The translations under genes and the position numbers were made by a program. A stretch of DNA of 42,726 bases from Rhodocyclales bacterium RIFCSPLOWO2_02_FULL_63_24 (lineage in GTDB: Bacteria > Pseudomonadota > Gammaproteobacteria > Burkholderiales > Rhodocyclaceae): positions 1 to 42,726 of the forward strand of contig MHZX01000114.1 of the NCBI GenBank assembly GCA_001828935.1, written 5' to 3'. The first letter of the stretch is position 1. Each line of letters opens with the position of its first letter. A model generated the notes under the pieces. The model was not told the origin of the DNA. It did no database searches and saw nothing but the letters and a program-made list of their open reading frames with translations. Shown piece after piece: positions 2,707-18,233 of the stretch.

Positions 2707-3147
2707 ATGAAGCTGAGACATTTCACCGCAGTTGGCCTGACGGCGCTGCTGCTGTTTGCAGCCACGGCCGGCCGTGCCGCGGATGCGGGCGTCGCCATGC
2801 CGAAGGCAACGGGCAATCGCATCGTGTTTCAGGTGAATGAAGACGACTCCCGGAAATGGAACACCATACTGGCCAACATCAACAATGTGCAGGAAGAACT
2901 GGGGCAGGTCGATGTAACGGTGGTTGCCATCGGTCCCGGCCTGGGCATGATCAAGGCCGACGCACTGACCGCCAATCGGGTGCAGGACGCGATGTCCGCC
3001 GGCGTGCGTTTCGTCGCCTGCGGCAATTCGATGCAGGCACAGCACCTGACCAGGGACGACATGATCGACGGCATTGCCTATGCCAAGGCCGGTTATGTCG
3101 AAGTGATGCGCTTGCAGCAGCAGGGCTGGGCCTATATCCGACCATAG
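2707..3147 (+). CDS. Secreted DsrE/DsrF-family protein (paralog 1)
   Basis: This 146-residue protein has a cleavable signal peptide (cleavage probably after GRAAD, residue about 26) and a single DsrE-like domain over residues 38-146. Shared landmarks with the two other secreted paralogs are a leading IVFQV strand, the KWN helix start, a G-G turn before LKAD/IKAD, one cysteine (C105 in FVACGNSM) and the C-terminus GWAYIRP. DsrE/TusD proteins are small sulfur-carrier-fold proteins; the secreted versions have no established role. The cysteine is the likely functional residue. Its promoter must share the 51-base gap with the reverse FAD oxidase gene. Confidence 0.88.
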   Translation: MKLRHFTAVGLTALLLFAATAGRAADAGVAMPKATGNRIVFQVNEDDSRKWNTILANINNVQEELGQVDVTVVAIGPGLGMIKADALTANRVQDAMSAGVRFVACGNSMQAQHLTRDDMIDGIAYAKAGYVEVMRLQQQGWAYIRP

Positions 3148-3166
3148 GCCACATATATTTCGACAT

Positions 3167-3209
3167 AAGCATAGCGGTTGGCGGCAGGCGCAGCCGGGCT
3201 GCTATGCTT
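3167..3209. other. Inverted repeat between the two dsrE paralogs
   Basis: Two perfect 9-base arms (AAGCATAGC at 3167-3175 and its complement at 3201-3209) flank a 25-base GC-rich loop in the 114-base gap between the paralogs. There is no T-run, so it is not a standard terminator. It could be an attenuating hairpin, an mRNA stabiliser or an operator. Confidence 0.45.
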
Positions 3210-3261
3210 GATCGACTGCGCGCCAGACGCAGCGTTCGATTACCCGCTGAGGAGACAACCC

Positions 3262-3741
3262 ATGACTGTGATTCACCGTAAGTTCGCCGCCGCCATTGCC
3301 TGTGCGGCTCTCGCCCTGCCCCTCGCCGCCGTTGCCGCCGGCGAGCCCAAGAAGCCCGTCGCCGCGCAGAAGAAAAAGCCGGTGGCAAAAATGGCGAAGA
3401 AGGAGCGCATGGTCATTCAGGTGTCCGACGCCGATTCCAAAAAGTGGAACCTGGCCCTGAACAACGCCAAGAACGTGCAGACCGATCTCGGCGCGGACAA
3501 GACCGAGATCGAGATCGTCGCCTACGGTCCCGGCATCGGCATGCTCAAGGCCGATGCCGAAGTCGCCAACCGCATCGAAGAGGCGGCCGCCGCCGGGGTC
3601 AAGGTGGTGGCCTGCGAGAACACCATGAAGGCGCAGAAAATCAGCCGCGACGACATGCACAAGAACGTCGAATACGTCCCGGCCGGCGTGGTCGAGCTGA
3701 TGCGCCGCCAGCAACAGGGCTATGCCTATATCCGCCCCTGA
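3262..3741 (+). CDS. Secreted DsrE/DsrF-family protein (paralog 2)
   Basis: The 159-residue protein starts at the ATG at 3262, preceded by a good Shine-Dalgarno (GAGGAGA at 3249-3255). An in-frame extension upstream lacks a signal and is rejected. It has a signal peptide, then a lysine-rich linker (residues about 30-48), then the DsrE-like domain with C118 in VVACENTM and the C-terminus GYAYIRP. It is clearly related to the gene upstream and to the gene at 15253, so a local duplication is likely. The basic linker is absent from paralog 1 and might bind nucleic acid, heparin-like polymer or membrane phosphate; that is speculation. Confidence 0.88.
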   Translation: MTVIHRKFAAAIACAALALPLAAVAAGEPKKPVAAQKKKPVAKMAKKERMVIQVSDADSKKWNLALNNAKNVQTDLGADKTEIEIVAYGPGIGMLKADAEVANRIEEAAAAGVKVVACENTMKAQKISRDDMHKNVEYVPAGVVELMRRQQQGYAYIRP

Positions 3742-13837: not shown

Positions 13838-14536
13838 TCAGATTTTCAGGTAAGTCCAGCCCTGCTGCACGCGCTCGGCGACATGCTCGATGGCGGTTCT
13901 TGCTACCACCGTATCGGGGACCAGTTCGACCTCCACACCGGCGCCTTGCAGGCGCGATATGGTTTGTCCACAGGCGACGAAACCGACCCGCGCATGATGC
14001 GCCTTGAGTTCGGCGATGCGATCGGCATAGCGTGTCGTGTCGACTCGCAGCAGTTCGAGGCCGCGGTGATTGGCGATAACCTCGACGCGGGCACTGCCCG
14101 CCTTGGCCAGATAGGCTTCCGCGAGGTCGAGCGCTGCTTCCATTTGCTCCGATCGGGAACTGTCCAGATGAATCAGGATGCGGGCGGGCTCCGTCGCGAA
14201 CAGACCGCCCGCCCAAGCCGTCATCGAGCGCGGCATTTCGACCGCGGTTGCGGCATGGTGTCCCAGCCAGCCAGCCAGGATGCCGGTCATCAGGACGATG
14301 CTGGCGGCCAGCGCGCCACCCCAGGCAGGAAGGCGCAGATTCCGCGCGTGCGCGGACGGCACGCGGCCATAGGCGTGGCGGACCAACTCCTTGGTGGCGC
14401 GCAGAGCGCAAACACGCTGGCCGAGTTCGGCGTCGCGGGCGATCGCGGCGAGAATCTCGTCGCATTCCTGGGCGCCAAGCTGGTTGTCGACGAAGGCATT
14501 CAGCCTTTCGTCCGAAAATTCCCGTATCGCGTTCAT
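13838..14536 (-). CDS. Membrane anti-sigma factor with a DsrE-like C-terminal domain
   Basis: This 232-residue protein has three parts. Residues 1-60 (FSDERLNAFVDNQL ... ATKELVRHAY) match the helical cytoplasmic anti-sigma domain common in betaproteobacteria, without a zinc HxxxCxxC motif. Residues about 71-92 are one membrane helix. Residues about 117-232 align by eye with the secreted DsrE proteins here: ARILIHLD, a helix, VEVIANHRGLELLR, C189 in FVACGQTI, and the end GWTYLKI. The topology puts the DsrE-like domain in the periplasm. It is coupled to the sigma gene by ATGA (14533-14536). Role inferred: it holds the sigma factor until the periplasmic domain senses a sulfur or redox signal. 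Confidence 0.85.
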   Translation of the reverse strand: MNAIREFSDERLNAFVDNQLGAQECDEILAAIARDAELGQRVCALRATKELVRHAYGRVPSAHARNLRLPAWGGALAASIVLMTGILAGWLGHHAATAVEMPRSMTAWAGGLFATEPARILIHLDSSRSEQMEAALDLAEAYLAKAGSARVEVIANHRGLELLRVDTTRYADRIAELKAHHARVGFVACGQTISRLQGAGVEVELVPDTVVARTAIEHVAERVQQGWTYLKI

Positions 14537-15075
14537 TTCACACTCCTGAGTTGCCGCTGCGTCGCCGGGACTTCCGTCAGGAGTTCCTTCAGCGATACCC
14601 GTGCGCGGCACAACCGGCTCATGACCGTGCCGATCGGTATCGCCAGGATTTCGGCGACCTCGGCATAGGAAAAATCTTCCAAATCGACCAGGGTGACTAC
14701 CTGGCGTTGCCCCAGCGGCAACTTCGCAATCGCGGTCCGCACCCGATTGACGGTTTGCTGGCGTTCCGCATGACTATCCGGTCCCGGCAGGTCGGATGGA
14801 AGTTCGGTCAACATCTCGTCGTCGACATCCGGGCGTAGCGAGCGCAGGTGATCGATCCAGCACCGGTTGAGGATCGCGAACAGCCAACTGGTCAGGCGTG
14901 CCGATTCGCGCAGCTGCTCGATCCTGGCCAGGCCGCGCGCCAGGGTTTCCTGGGTCAGGTCATCGGCCAGAACCGCGTCATGGCACCAGGCGAAAGCCAG
15001 GCGATAGAGCCGCACGCGACTTGCCTTGATCTGCTCCACCAGTTCGCGCTGCTCCCGCGATTGCAGCCATTTCAT
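14533..15075 (-). CDS. ECF-family RNA polymerase sigma factor
   Basis: The 180-residue protein has sigma region 2 at about residues 22-80 (DDLTQETLARG, then LTSWLFAILNRCWIDHLR) and region 4 at about 112-165 (LPLGQRQVVTLVDLEDFSYAEVAEIL, then GTVMSRLCRAR). These directly recognise -10 and -35 elements. A strong ribosome site (AGGAGG, 15084-15089 on this strand) precedes the ATG. An ECF-type promoter on its own strand (15096-15125) suggests autoregulation, and the mirror promoter would drive the divergent dsrE gene. The anti-sigma gene follows with an ATGA overlap. Confidence 0.95.
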   Translation of the reverse strand: MKWLQSREQRELVEQIKASRVRLYRLAFAWCHDAVLADDLTQETLARGLARIEQLRESARLTSWLFAILNRCWIDHLRSLRPDVDDEMLTELPSDLPGPDSHAERQQTVNRVRTAIAKLPLGQRQVVTLVDLEDFSYAEVAEILAIPIGTVMSRLCRARVSLKELLTEVPATQRQLRSVK

Positions 15076-15095
15076 CGGTTATTCCTCCTGTCGCA

Positions 15096-15125
15096 GTATG
15101 ACGCAGGATGCGGCCGATTTATTCC
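15096..15125 (-). promoter_or_regulatory. ECF-type promoter of the sigma/anti-sigma pair
   Basis: Read on the reverse strand, GGAATAAA (15125-15118), 14 bases, then CGTCATAC (15103-15096). The GGAA/CGTC elements and about 16-base -35/-10 spacing are classic for ECF sigma factors. The leader to the sigma ATG would be only about 15 bases, just long enough for the ribosome site. Confidence 0.75.
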
Positions 15126-15146
15126 CTCGCCTCTTCCTGGCGGGGT

Positions 15147-15176
15147 GGAATAAACCCCGGTTCGTACGCGTCTTAT
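15147..15176 (+). promoter_or_regulatory. ECF-type promoter of the divergent dsrE gene
   Basis: GGAATAAA (15147-15154), 14 bases, then CGTCTTAT (15169-15176). It has the same elements and spacing as the reverse-strand promoter 21 bases away. It predicts a leader of about 70 bases before the ATG at 15253. Confidence 0.8.
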
Positions 15177-15252
15177 AGCGGCAGCCATCCTGTTTCACCC
15201 CGACGTAGGGACCACAAAAAGGTTTCATATAACCAACTCGAGAGGAGTCATC

Positions 15253-15693
15253 ATGATTCGCAGAACTTTTGTCCAGCTTATGCTTGCCGGCGCGCTCGTC
15301 GCCGAAGGATCTTCCGCGGCTATCGCCAAATCCGTTGCGAAGGCCGCCGCCAAACCGGGTGTGGTAATCCAGGTCAGCGACGACGATCCAAAGAACTGGA
15401 ATCAGGCGTTGAACGTGATCAAGAACATCCAGTCGGAATACGGCAAGAACAAGGTCAATGTCGAGCTGGTGGTCTTCGGCCGTGGTGCCGGATTGCTCAA
15501 GTTCGACTCGCCGCTGGCGAACCGCATCGACGACACGCTGGCAAGCGGTGCCGCCGTCTCCATGTGCCAGAACACGATGACGGGACAGAAGCTGACCGAA
15601 GCGGACATGCATCCGAAAATCGGCTACGTCAAGGCCGGCGTCATCGAAATCATCACCAAGAGCAAGAAGGGCTGGGCAGTCGTCCGTCCGTAG
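15253..15693 (+). CDS. Secreted DsrE/DsrF-family protein (paralog 3), probable sigma target
   Basis: The 146-residue protein has a signal peptide (cleavage probably near SAAIAK, residue about 25) and a DsrE-like domain: VVIQVSDDD, NWNQALNVIKNIQ, VELVVFGRGAGLLKFDS, C105 in VSMCQNTM, and GWAVVRP at the end. A ribosome site (AGAGGAG, 15241-15247) sets the start. Its promoter mirrors that of the sigma gene, so it should be induced when the anti-sigma factor releases the sigma factor. Since the anti-sigma factor carries a domain of the same family, this protein could bind the same ligand, deliver it or feed back on the sensor. Confidence 0.9.
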   Translation: MIRRTFVQLMLAGALVAEGSSAAIAKSVAKAAAKPGVVIQVSDDDPKNWNQALNVIKNIQSEYGKNKVNVELVVFGRGAGLLKFDSPLANRIDDTLASGAAVSMCQNTMTGQKLTEADMHPKIGYVKAGVIEIITKSKKGWAVVRP

Positions 15694-15826
15694 CCGTCGA
15701 CTGCCGTCGACCGTCTGAATCGAGCGCCTTGGCGGAATTGGCGCCGCGGATATTCACGGCGGCGGCTTTCAGCGCCGCGCCACGCAACGGCAAGAGTAAC
15801 GCTCAATAAACCGAAGGAGATGTTTC

Positions 15827-16840
15827 GTGCATTTTTCTCGTCCCATTGTTTCTACATTGCTCGTTGCCGGTCTGATGGGCGGCCTTGCCCGCGCCGAGGG
15901 TGCGGCAGTTTCCTCAGGTGCCCCGGCGGCGCAGTCACTGGAACCGATACCGGCCAACAAGGACAACGATCTGCGGCTGTTTTATGTCGACGGCCGGATC
16001 GTCACCGGCACTGCGGCGATGCAAAAAATGAATACCGACGCCAATCTCGTCCTCTGGCTCGCGGGGAATCAGTTTTTCGCGATGGCAGATGTCATCCGGG
16101 CATTCCAGAAGCAGCATCCCCGGATCGGCAATGTCGGCCTGATTACCCTGCCGCCAGGAATCATTCTGAAAGCGATCGATGCCGGTGGTTGGAGCTATGC
16201 AGGCAACAACTATCGCATGCAGCCGGATGTATACGCCAGCGTTCAGCTGGGTCATCTGAAAACGCTCAAGGGCAAGGGCAGGATGAACCAGTTCATGGTC
16301 TACACCCACAATGCGCTCAACCTCATCGTGCCCAAGGGCAACCCGAAGCGGATCAAGGGTATCGACGATCTCGGGCGTGATGACCTCAAGATCATGCTGC
16401 CCAACCCAATCGACGAAGGCATCATGACCTTTTACGCAAAGAAGGTATTGGTCAATCACAAGCTGTGGGAAAAGCTGTCGGGCGGCAAGGAATGCAAGTC
16501 TTGCGACCCGACCCGGAATGTCCATTTCACCTCTGTGCACCACCGGGAGATTCCGGACGGCCTCAAGGCCGGAACAGTTGACGCGGGGATTGTCTGGGCG
16601 ACCGAAACGAAAAACGCGTTGGAAGAGGGTCATGCCGTCGAGGCGATTCCCTTGCCCGCGGAAGACAGCCTGATCAACGAGGTCTCGTACGCGATCGGCG
16701 TCATGACTGATGCCGCGCACAAGGAGGCGGCTAGCGAATACTTGTCCTTCCTGAAATCGGAACAGGGACAGGATGCCTATGCCAAGTTCGGTTTCATCAA
16801 GGCTTCGAAGGCCAATCTGGAAGTTCGCGACATACCTTAG
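15827..16840 (+). CDS. Periplasmic solute-binding-like protein (type 2 fold, ModA-like)
   Basis: This 337-residue protein has a signal peptide (residues 1-22, cleavage after ARA) and the pattern of class-II periplasmic binding proteins: LVLWLAGNQFFAMADVIRAF, NALNLIVPKGNPKRIKGIDDLG, the DAGIVWATE hinge block and a C-terminal YLSFLKSEQGQDAYAKFGF segment. It resembles molybdate/tungstate-type ModA proteins. An insert near residues 219-231 carries a cysteine pair (CKSC, 223-226); it is not a haem site because no His follows. The start is a GTG with a good ribosome site (GAAGGAGA). No permease or ATPase gene is adjacent, so it may act as a ligand sensor or scavenger with dsrE paralog 3. Confidence 0.85.
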   Translation: MHFSRPIVSTLLVAGLMGGLARAEGAAVSSGAPAAQSLEPIPANKDNDLRLFYVDGRIVTGTAAMQKMNTDANLVLWLAGNQFFAMADVIRAFQKQHPRIGNVGLITLPPGIILKAIDAGGWSYAGNNYRMQPDVYASVQLGHLKTLKGKGRMNQFMVYTHNALNLIVPKGNPKRIKGIDDLGRDDLKIMLPNPIDEGIMTFYAKKVLVNHKLWEKLSGGKECKSCDPTRNVHFTSVHHREIPDGLKAGTVDAGIVWATETKNALEEGHAVEAIPLPAEDSLINEVSYAIGVMTDAAHKEAASEYLSFLKSEQGQDAYAKFGFIKASKANLEVRDIP

Positions 16841-16962: not shown

Positions 16963-17762
16963 TCAGGAGGTCAGCAGGCCATGCAGCATCTTGGTCGCCA
17001 GCAACGCCAGAAAGCCGCCGAAGCCTCTTTTCAATTGCTTGACCGGCAGCTTGTGCGCCAGCCGGGCGCCCACCGGCGCCATCAGAAAACTGATGGCGAC
17101 GACCCCGACGAAGGCGGGCAGGTAGATATAACCCAGCGAATAATCCGGCAGGCCTGAGGTCTTGAGGCCGCTCAGGATGTAGCCGAAGGTCCCGGCGACG
17201 GCGATCGGAAAACCCAGCGCCGAGGAAGTGCCGACGGCATGGTGAATCACCACGTTGCAAAACACCATGAAGGGAATCGTCAGGAAGCCGCCGCCGGCGG
17301 CGACCAGGCTCGAGACGACGCCGACCAGCAAGCCGGCGACGACCATGCCGAGAGTGCCCGGCAACTGGCGGTGGGGCTTGGGCTTGAAGTCCAGCATCAT
17401 CTGCAACGAAGCGTAATACACGATCGCGGTGAACACCATGGCCAGCGGCCGGGTCGGCACCCAGGTGGCGATGAAGGAGCCGGACAGGGTGCCGATCACC
17501 AAGCCGGGTGCAAAACTCTTGACGATATCCCAGCGTACGGCGCCATGCCGGTGATGGGCGCGCATGCTGGCGATCGACGTGAATACGATGGTTGCCATCG
17601 ACGTACCGAGCGCCAGATGCATGCTGTGCTCGACCGGGAAAGCTTGCGCCGTAAAGAGCATGAACAGCAGCGGGACGATGGTCAGTCCGCCGCCGACACC
17701 GAACAGGCCGGCAACGAATCCGGCGAATACTCCCAGCAGCGGGTAGCCCAACCACCAGAGAG

Positions 17763-17766
<4 letters not shown>
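16963..17766 (-). CDS. TSUP-family permease (TauE/SafE-like sulfite or sulfonate exporter)
   Basis: The 267-residue polytopic protein has about eight helices in two homologous halves. Each half begins with the family glycine motif: AGLFGVGGGLTIVPLLF near residue 17 and SSLVAAGGGFLTIPFMVF near 150. TSUP proteins move sulfite, sulfoacetate, thiosulfate or other organosulfur anions, but some members move unrelated ions. The start is a TTG overlapping the EVE gene stop by four bases (17763-17766); no ATG fits. Position beside the sigma/DsrE locus hints at sulfur-anion export, which is inference only. Confidence 0.87.

Positions 17767-18233
<467 letters not shown>

Follow-up and report, generated by a model that had tools for sequence, protein, structure and literature searches.

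Group ECF26 of the extracytoplasmic function (ECF) sigma factors contains the closest described relatives of the system considered here, a sigma/anti-sigma pair encoded on a 42,726-nucleotide stretch of DNA (hereafter, the window) from Rhodocyclales bacterium RIFCSPLOWO2_02_FULL_63_24 (contig MHZX01000114.1). In Sinorhizobium meliloti, sulfite-generating compounds, thiosulfate included, elicit a response of the ECF26 members RpoE1 and RpoE4, and 'regulation of thiosulfate oxidation' had been put forward as the possible function of the group in an earlier classification (PMC3511301). The published ECF26 promoter consensus is GGAATA / GT, and the table of promoters based on 5′ rapid amplification of cDNA ends or RNA sequencing gives GGAATAA + CGTCT for rpoE4 and GGAATAA + TGTCTT for SMc01418-rpoE1 (PMC6180224). 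Beyond ECF26, the ECF sigma factors sigma2 and sigma7 of Arcobacter butzleri, a member of another phylum, alter sox expression (PMC3445524), and in Alphaproteobacteria the ArsR-type sulfane-sulfur repressors SoxR and sHdrR link reduced sulfur to sulfur oxidation genes (PMC10451225, PMC12423496). ECF control of sox (PMC3445524) and sulfur-responsive ECF26 systems are already known.

A first reading of the window from its letters (the sequence-only reading) had proposed a signalling system in which an ECF sigma factor and its membrane anti-sigma factor are divergent from a secreted DsrE protein and a solute-binding protein, and all four genes were found in this arrangement. On the minus strand, the ECF26-like sigma factor (180 amino acids (aa), 14533..15075), identified by sequence comparison and by Pfam (Sigma70_r4_2, 1.5e-17; r2, 7.8e-12), is followed by the anti-sigma factor (232 aa, 13841..14536, stop codon from 13838), whose start overlaps the sigma stop by 4 bases and whose residues 1-56 form the N-terminal anti-sigma domain. 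On the plus strand lies the gene for the secreted DsrE protein (146 aa, 15253..15693), with a signal-peptide-like start as judged by eye.

Comparison with known ECF26 systems

The first-listed plasmid match to the window sigma factor was a Roseateles sigma factor (41.5%). A sigma factor of pSymA that is divergent from an S8 peptidase gene shared 39.5% identity with the window sigma factor over 92% and scored 148 bits against the family profile. This pSymA protein fits RpoE6 (SMa0143) because the divergent S8 peptidase arrangement matches the description of RpoE6, an identity assigned by gene context. The anti-sigma factor encoded downstream of it (putative EcfR6) scored 31.8 bits against the N-terminal profile of our family, and neither this protein nor the anti-sigma factors beside the Roseateles and Paroceanicella plasmid sigma factors gave a DsrE domain match in the profile comparison.

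The likeness to the S. meliloti pairs RpoE1-EcfR1, RpoE4-EcfR4 and RpoE6-EcfR6 extends from the sigma sequence (compared with putative RpoE6 only) to a GGAATA/CGT promoter and a probably autoregulated operon. As in S. meliloti, where there is also a thiosulfate/sulfite link and a periplasmic-binding-fold protein among the targets, an anti-sigma domain is combined with one helix (PMC3511301, PMC6180224). The anti-sigma factor in the window has the ECF26-type layout of an N-terminal anti-sigma domain, one transmembrane segment and a predicted periplasmic C-terminus, and an ECF26-type promoter sequence (GGAATAN-N14/15-CGTC) was found on the sigma side of 52 of the 62 systems compared below. On the other hand, the EcfR C-termini are somewhat similar to RsiW (PMC6180224), which is a feature reported for S. 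meliloti and no formal ECF26 criterion, whereas the C-terminal domain in the window is a DsrE domain; and dsrE, porin and sox genes take the place of sorT among the candidate targets here. On sequence grounds, the system is best assigned to the ECF26 type, with its sensor domain exchanged, because the sigma factor and promoter are ECF26-like while putative EcfR6 lacks a DsrE domain.

The sequence-only reading knew of no anti-sigma factor with a DsrE sensor. No description of one was found among the matches listed for the open-access literature searched, which did not cover the 2021 ECF reclassification (gkaa1229); the text of PMC3445524 on Arcobacter butzleri does not contain 'DsrE', and PMC3511301 does not contain it as a whole word. 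The general kind of system is known, as the sigma factor resembles a group tied to sulfite and thiosulfate responses.

DsrE domain in the predicted periplasmic part of the anti-sigma factor

Residues 117-232 of the anti-sigma factor (13841..14188, minus strand) had been aligned by eye with the secreted DsrE proteins, and this resemblance was borne out by profiles and by structure prediction. With a profile of 20 anti-sigma homologues, residues 119-231 matched 1l1s (MTH1491, DsrE fold; E 1.6e-12), and there was a second match to 2pd2 (E 2.3e-4). Residues 116-231 also matched a set of 13 secreted DsrE proteins, among them the three encoded in the window, when profiles were compared by hhalign (probability 98.8, E 1.1e-16). 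In the AlphaFold model, the predicted local distance difference test score (pLDDT) was mostly near 90 from about residue 120 and below 50 for residues 57-114. A Foldseek search with this model returned 1l1s first (E 5.2e-8; template modelling (TM) score 0.88 by target length; root mean square deviation 1.9), followed by 2pd2, 8uja, 3pnx, DsrE (2hy5), TusD (2d1p) and YchN; a non-DsrE fold was not seen. The secreted DsrE protein falls slightly short of the Pfam cut-off (E 0.0033), its profile matches 1l1s at E 1.6e-26, and in its model (pLDDT 85) helices and strands follow one another as in the anti-sigma domain. Thus, by profile, profile-profile comparison and predicted fold, the periplasmic part of the anti-sigma factor is a DsrE domain. 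It should be noted that single-sequence scans of the anti-sigma factor against Pfam and NCBIfam made no DsrE call (only zf-HC2 at E 0.056) and that the Pfam DsrE match in a homologue (L020) stayed below the cut-off (E 0.02); we did not count this miss against the assignment because the profiles and the structure reveal the domain. The N-terminus matched MucA/RseA domains weakly over residues 5-41 (6in7, E 0.031; 8z6g, E 0.037).

MTH1491, DsrE, TusD and YchN share the fold of the sensor domain, and C189 aligns with a Cys of 1l1s and 2pd2. To our knowledge, none of these four proteins is part of an anti-sigma factor, unlike the DsrE fold in the window, which is fused to one.

Conservation was analyzed in 62 full-length anti-sigma factors from 60 sources, namely the window, 19 loci (L003-L021) and 40 fetched regions; further full-length matches of the family and class searches lie outside this set, and the match in L022 was partial. 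C189 (codon 13970-13972, minus strand), H123, W227, Y229 and D17 were invariant, and N156 and G226 were present in 61 and 60 proteins, respectively, which agrees with the Cys and the GW-Y C-terminus pointed out before. The equivalent Cys (C105 in the secreted DsrE protein) occurred in all 57 standalone DsrE domains examined. H123 and N156 were typical of the sensor, as standalone domains have Q (41) or H (16) at the former position and F, H or Y (56 of 57) at the latter.

A single transmembrane helix is predicted from hydropathy and flanking charges at residues ~74-92 (14261..14317, minus strand). The most hydrophobic 19 residues began at residue 66-110 (median 75.5) in 61 of the 62 anti-sigma factors, and their mean hydropathy reached 1.6 in 55. 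Lys and Arg in the 15-residue flanks averaged 3.6 before and 0.8 after the helix, with more before it in 59 of 62 (two versus one in the window's protein). This excess on the N-terminal side predicts a cytoplasmic N-terminus and a DsrE domain that faces the periplasm and not the cytoplasm.

We also compared the 62 sensor domains with the 57 standalone domains in a tree, in which they formed the two sides of one branch (SH-like approximate likelihood ratio test (SH-aLRT) 98; short alignment, quick search, midpoint root and several long branches). The idea that the sensor is a recent duplicate of the neighbouring dsrE gene was therefore rejected, the sensor and standalone domains being separate subfamilies. 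Since the tree separates both groups, the sensor resembles a single old capture rather than a copy of the local target gene, and these sequences suggest that the sensor DsrE domain likely had one origin.

Distribution and gene order

Gammaproteobacteria are taken here in the GTDB sense, that is, beta- and gammaproteobacteria together, and the window's own genome is counted. A profile match at 1e-12 was found in 75 of 369 sampled genomes of this class, and 64 of them, from 41 families, were chosen by hand as carriers of a full-length anti-sigma match; the 11 that were dropped had partial or DsrE-only matches, and 10 of these had soxB. In the family sample, 45 of 249 genomes matched at 1e-5, with 21 full-length matches. 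Across the phylum, there were matches in 12 of 299 genomes, nine of them restricted to the DsrE domain and three full-length (own genome, G019 and G817), these three being from a single taxonomic order.

The arrangement is not isolated to the window. The sigma gene was directly upstream of the anti-sigma gene in all 62 systems, and a secreted dsrE gene was divergent from sigma in 42 and located downstream in five. The divergent dsrE was present in all 18 closest relatives (the window and L003-L019) and in 24 of the 44 others, to which the five downstream cases belong. A gene for a porin-like protein of the outer membrane occupied the divergent side of 21 of these 44 systems, two of which (L060 and L065) have no dsrE there; one such protein matched Pfam Porin_O_P at E 2e-9 and another had no Pfam match. 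The porin-like protein of L058 (8623-10041, plus strand) is conserved in 21 other loci, with an ANWLxLQGTE-like start, and may take up sulfur compounds. The divergent run in L058 consists of genes for DsrE, the porin, a thioredoxin-like protein and a TsuA/YeeE-like sulfur transporter (PF04143, 1.8e-66; the curated thresholds of the TsuA models were not reached), with soxX and soxB nearby.

Other arrangements were also observed. In L067 and L072, the sigma/anti-sigma modules are doubled in tandem, with dsrE genes flanking both sides. In L066, L068, L069, L078 and L064, the module has no adjacent dsrE or porin gene and is preceded by a gene of 966-991 aa that looks glnE-like by eye; groEL lies downstream of the module in the first four.

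Putative promoters

Two motif matches face away from each other between the sigma and dsrE genes of the window, namely GGAATAA-N15-CGTC(ATA) (15100..15125, minus strand), from which the sigma factor may drive the sigma/anti-sigma operon, and GGAATAA-N15-CGTC(TTA) (15147..15172, plus strand), its putative counterpart for dsrE; a strict scan of the 42.7-kb window gave no match besides this pair. Among the 62 systems, the motif was present on the divergent side in 40 and on both sides in 38, compared with an expectation of 0.005 per 550-base strand calculated from the remaining sequence of the regions. It persists on the divergent side where the gene is not dsrE, as in L060 and L065 (porin) and in L090 (where the encoded protein matches SoxB below the threshold). 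Because this ECF-type motif is common to both sides, it is very likely that the sigma factor induces its own operon and the secreted dsrE gene, as the sequence-only reading had suggested for the soluble DsrE protein.

A strict scan of the own genome gave seven matches, compared with about eight expected by base composition and two for a reversed-pattern control. Outside the window pair, the matches on C68 and C78 are inside genes and that on C80 has no following gene start. The match on C82 (L105 8994, plus strand) is in the intergenic stretch ahead of the sox operon of this genome, on the opposite strand, and L175 has a match in a comparable position. The match on C140 (L109 1513, plus strand) is ~24 bp before a gene of 201 aa that is followed by a thioredoxin-like gene (by eye), and it has no A/T-rich end of the -10 element. 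We therefore make no claim of a regulon beyond the window pair in this genome, these matches being at chance level, misoriented, intragenic or weak. In L069 (10145) and L078 (10228), on the plus strand, a motif was observed ~225 bp ahead of a DsbD-like gene (named by eye in L078). No common theme was seen among the extra matches found in single genomes (L110, L112, L114, L115, L121 and L128).

Association with sulfur oxidation

The soxB gene (TIGR04486) was identified in 150 of the 369 genomes, including 63 of the 64 carriers but only 87 of the 305 other genomes (Fisher 6.5e-28, kinship ignored). By family, it occurred in 40 of the 41 carrier families and in 38 other families (p between 6e-16 and 2e-17 for assumed totals of 170-183 families). 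The sole carrier without a listed soxB (G303) has dsrA. The latter gene was present in 50 of the 64 carriers versus 68 of the 305 others; as an added correlate it was set aside, with no clear gain over soxB (49/63 versus 56/87 among the 150 soxB genomes, p 0.10).

A motif scan of 12 genomes (one of which, G494, is outside the carrier list and gave no match) revealed sites directly before soxB in G328 and G559, and a test of the region upstream of soxB was therefore run. Up to 4 kb upstream were fetched, yielding 60 regions from 59 of the 63 soxB carriers (four unfetched) and regions from 40 of the 87 non-carriers, the latter picked by the authors; G249 and G293, with partial matches, were passed over, and four of the non-carriers used (G309, G322, G548 and G566) had DsrE-only matches. 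Within 400 bp upstream of soxB and 50 bp inside it, on the soxB strand, the motif occurred in 16 of the 60 carrier regions and in none of the 40 non-carrier regions (Fisher 1.4e-4; background expectation 0.24; the two genomes that prompted the test are counted among the 16). These sites fall in 11 families. A spacer of 15 accounted for five sites and one of 16 for 11; when the remaining lengths between 5 and 29 were tried, four yielded a single site each; the opposite strand gave none, and ~500 scrambled motifs gave a mean of 0.08 and a maximum of three. Anywhere in the fetched stretch on the same strand, the motif was found in 21 of 60 versus 2 of 40 regions, and in L138 and L139 the site probably corresponds to the promoter of the sigma operon itself. 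Additional matches, at a distance of ~2.4-2.7 kb on the upstream side of soxB, precede soxX (L133 and L172) or a soxYZ/soxA group (L131 and L140; SoxX, Y, Z and A named by NCBIfam). In the genomes of L066, L068, L069, L078 and L064, whose modules have no adjacent dsrE or porin gene, the motif lies before soxB in G328, G370, G453 and G485, whereas in G582 the upstream distance to soxB is 2.6 kb.

Proposed mechanism and alternative explanations

With the fold, gene order, motif, topology signal, invariant Cys and soxB association described above, we consider it probable that the locus encodes an ECF26-type pair whose anti-sigma sensor, a DsrE-fold sulfur-carrier domain, couples periplasmic sulfur to the machinery of sulfur uptake and oxidation. 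At rest, judging from homology, the N-terminal anti-sigma domain would keep the sigma factor at the inner membrane. When reduced sulfur is oxidized in the periplasm, a persulfide, polysulfide or thiosulfonate would be loaded on Cys189, and the loaded DsrE domain would change and free the sigma factor, via a conformational change or proteolysis. The freed sigma factor may then read GGAATA-N15/16-CGTC promoters, that of its own operon included. In this genome, it would turn on the divergent secreted dsrE gene and perhaps the gene for the solute-binding protein; in other genomes, it would act on a unit with dsrE and/or the porin gene and, in some, on soxXYZA and soxB. DsrE3A and TusA of one archaeon react with tetrathionate, and DsrE3A takes thiosulfonate on a Cys and passes thiosulfate to TusA (PMC4175335); the behaviour of this DsrE3A makes sulfur loading at C189 plausible, though no more than that. 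SoxR and sHdrR are DNA-binding repressors, whereas the presumed sensor in the window is periplasmic and would act by freeing a sigma factor. The earlier proposal that sensor and target belong to one family stands in that both are DsrE proteins, and it appears too narrow in that the likely targets in relatives include sox genes and an outer-membrane porin. A more far-reaching view is that a sulfur-carrier fold was captured once, anciently, as a transmembrane sensor and that sulfur on Cys189, directly or via secreted DsrE, switches sox, carrier and porin genes in many beta- and gammaproteobacterial sulfur oxidizers, which we regard as possible rather than probable.

Several points weigh against the proposed mechanism. 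The divergent dsrE gene is missing in 20 of the 62 systems, and 13 of the 44 systems beyond the close relatives have neither dsrE nor the porin gene at the places tested (in L081, one of the 13, both are present slightly further away). The sigma-side motif is missing in 10 of the 62 systems, and 44 of the 60 soxB regions have no strict site within 400 bp. Before the sox genes of the own genome, there is no sense-strand motif and one opposite-strand match, and sox control is thus not indicated for the window's organism. In addition, the soxB co-occurrence is corrected for phylogeny only through the family count, ECF26 members without a sulfur link exist (RpoE3 and RpoE6; PMC3511301, PMC6180224), and the presumed activity of Cys189 is carried over by analogy from the DsrE family.

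Different explanations of the same data were also considered. DsrE proteins form hetero-oligomers. The sensor domain might be a docking site at which the secreted DsrE protein binds, reports its sulfur loading and closes a feedback loop, and the divergent dsrE gene in 42 of 62 systems, the common promoter motif and the archaeal handover of thiosulfate from DsrE3A to TusA (PMC4175335) would fit such a role; however, 15 of the 44 systems beyond the close relatives (14 without L081) have no dsrE at the places tested, with other places unsearched, and still keep C189, and we consider docking unlikely. Equally improbable in our view is that the signal is sulfite, as for RpoE1 and RpoE4, with DsrE as just one of several ECF26 anti-sigma C-termini. 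The ECF26-like sigma factor and promoter, a TauE/SafE-family permease gene that adjoins the locus in this lineage and the periplasmic-binding-fold protein among the RpoE1 targets (PMC3511301, PMC6180224) point toward sulfite, whereas the sensing parts differ in that putative EcfR6 has no DsrE domain, the candidate targets are sox, dsrE and porin genes, and no gene for a sulfite dehydrogenase stood out nearby, although no search was aimed at one.

Somewhat less credible than either is that C189 senses general thiol-oxidizing or electrophile stress (oxidants, metals or disulfide stress), which sulfur oxidizers would meet most. A single invariant Cys in the DsrE domain, the possible motif before the dsbD-like gene of L069 and L078, and RpoE3 and RpoE6, which are apparently uninduced by sulfite-generating compounds (PMC3511301), are compatible with it, but the occurrence of soxB in all carriers except one (63/64) and the motif upstream of this gene point to thiosulfate oxidation and not to repair enzymes. 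Proteolysis releases several classical anti-sigma factors, a precedent for the notion that the DsrE domain is no more than a degenerate spacer, with the release set by an unrelated protein or by general envelope proteolysis. This seems highly improbable, as the conservation of H123, C189, W227 and Y229 (62/62) and N156 (61/62) exceeds the needs of a spacer. Sensing of periplasmic sulfur by the DsrE domain is thus the explanation that we favour.

Neighbouring genes in the window

The gene for the periplasmic solute-binding protein (337 aa, 15827..16840, plus strand; SBP_bac_11, 2.4e-36) is a possible second gene of the dsrE unit. It was rejected as a core component, as only 6 of the 62 systems have a relative of it nearby. 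The gene adjoining it encodes the TauE/SafE-family permease (16966-18150, minus strand; Pfam 7.7e-54), which is a recurrent neighbour in close relatives. Two more secreted DsrE genes are located in tandem at 2707-3147 and 3178-3741 on the plus strand, and the window scan found no strict sigma motif in front of this pair. A search of the own genome (assembly 90.8% complete) for such standalone DsrE genes gave three, each of which lies within the window (at 2707, 3271 and 15253).

Implications for sulfur oxidizers

The sensing of external sulfur by regulators in sulfur oxidizers has been called poorly understood (PMC11582611), and bacteria with a truncated Sox system have been considered to need little sophisticated regulation (PMC10451225). 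Our data point to a widespread sigma/anti-sigma module that would sense through a periplasmic sulfur-carrier fold and that, in some genomes, would act on sox promoters. The question is directly testable because the cysteine and the promoter are named and the genes can be counted, and synthetic biology may find in the module a candidate sensor of periplasmic sulfur. If the more far-reaching view given above is true, the module would represent a control layer of sulfur oxidizers that is absent from the literature searched.

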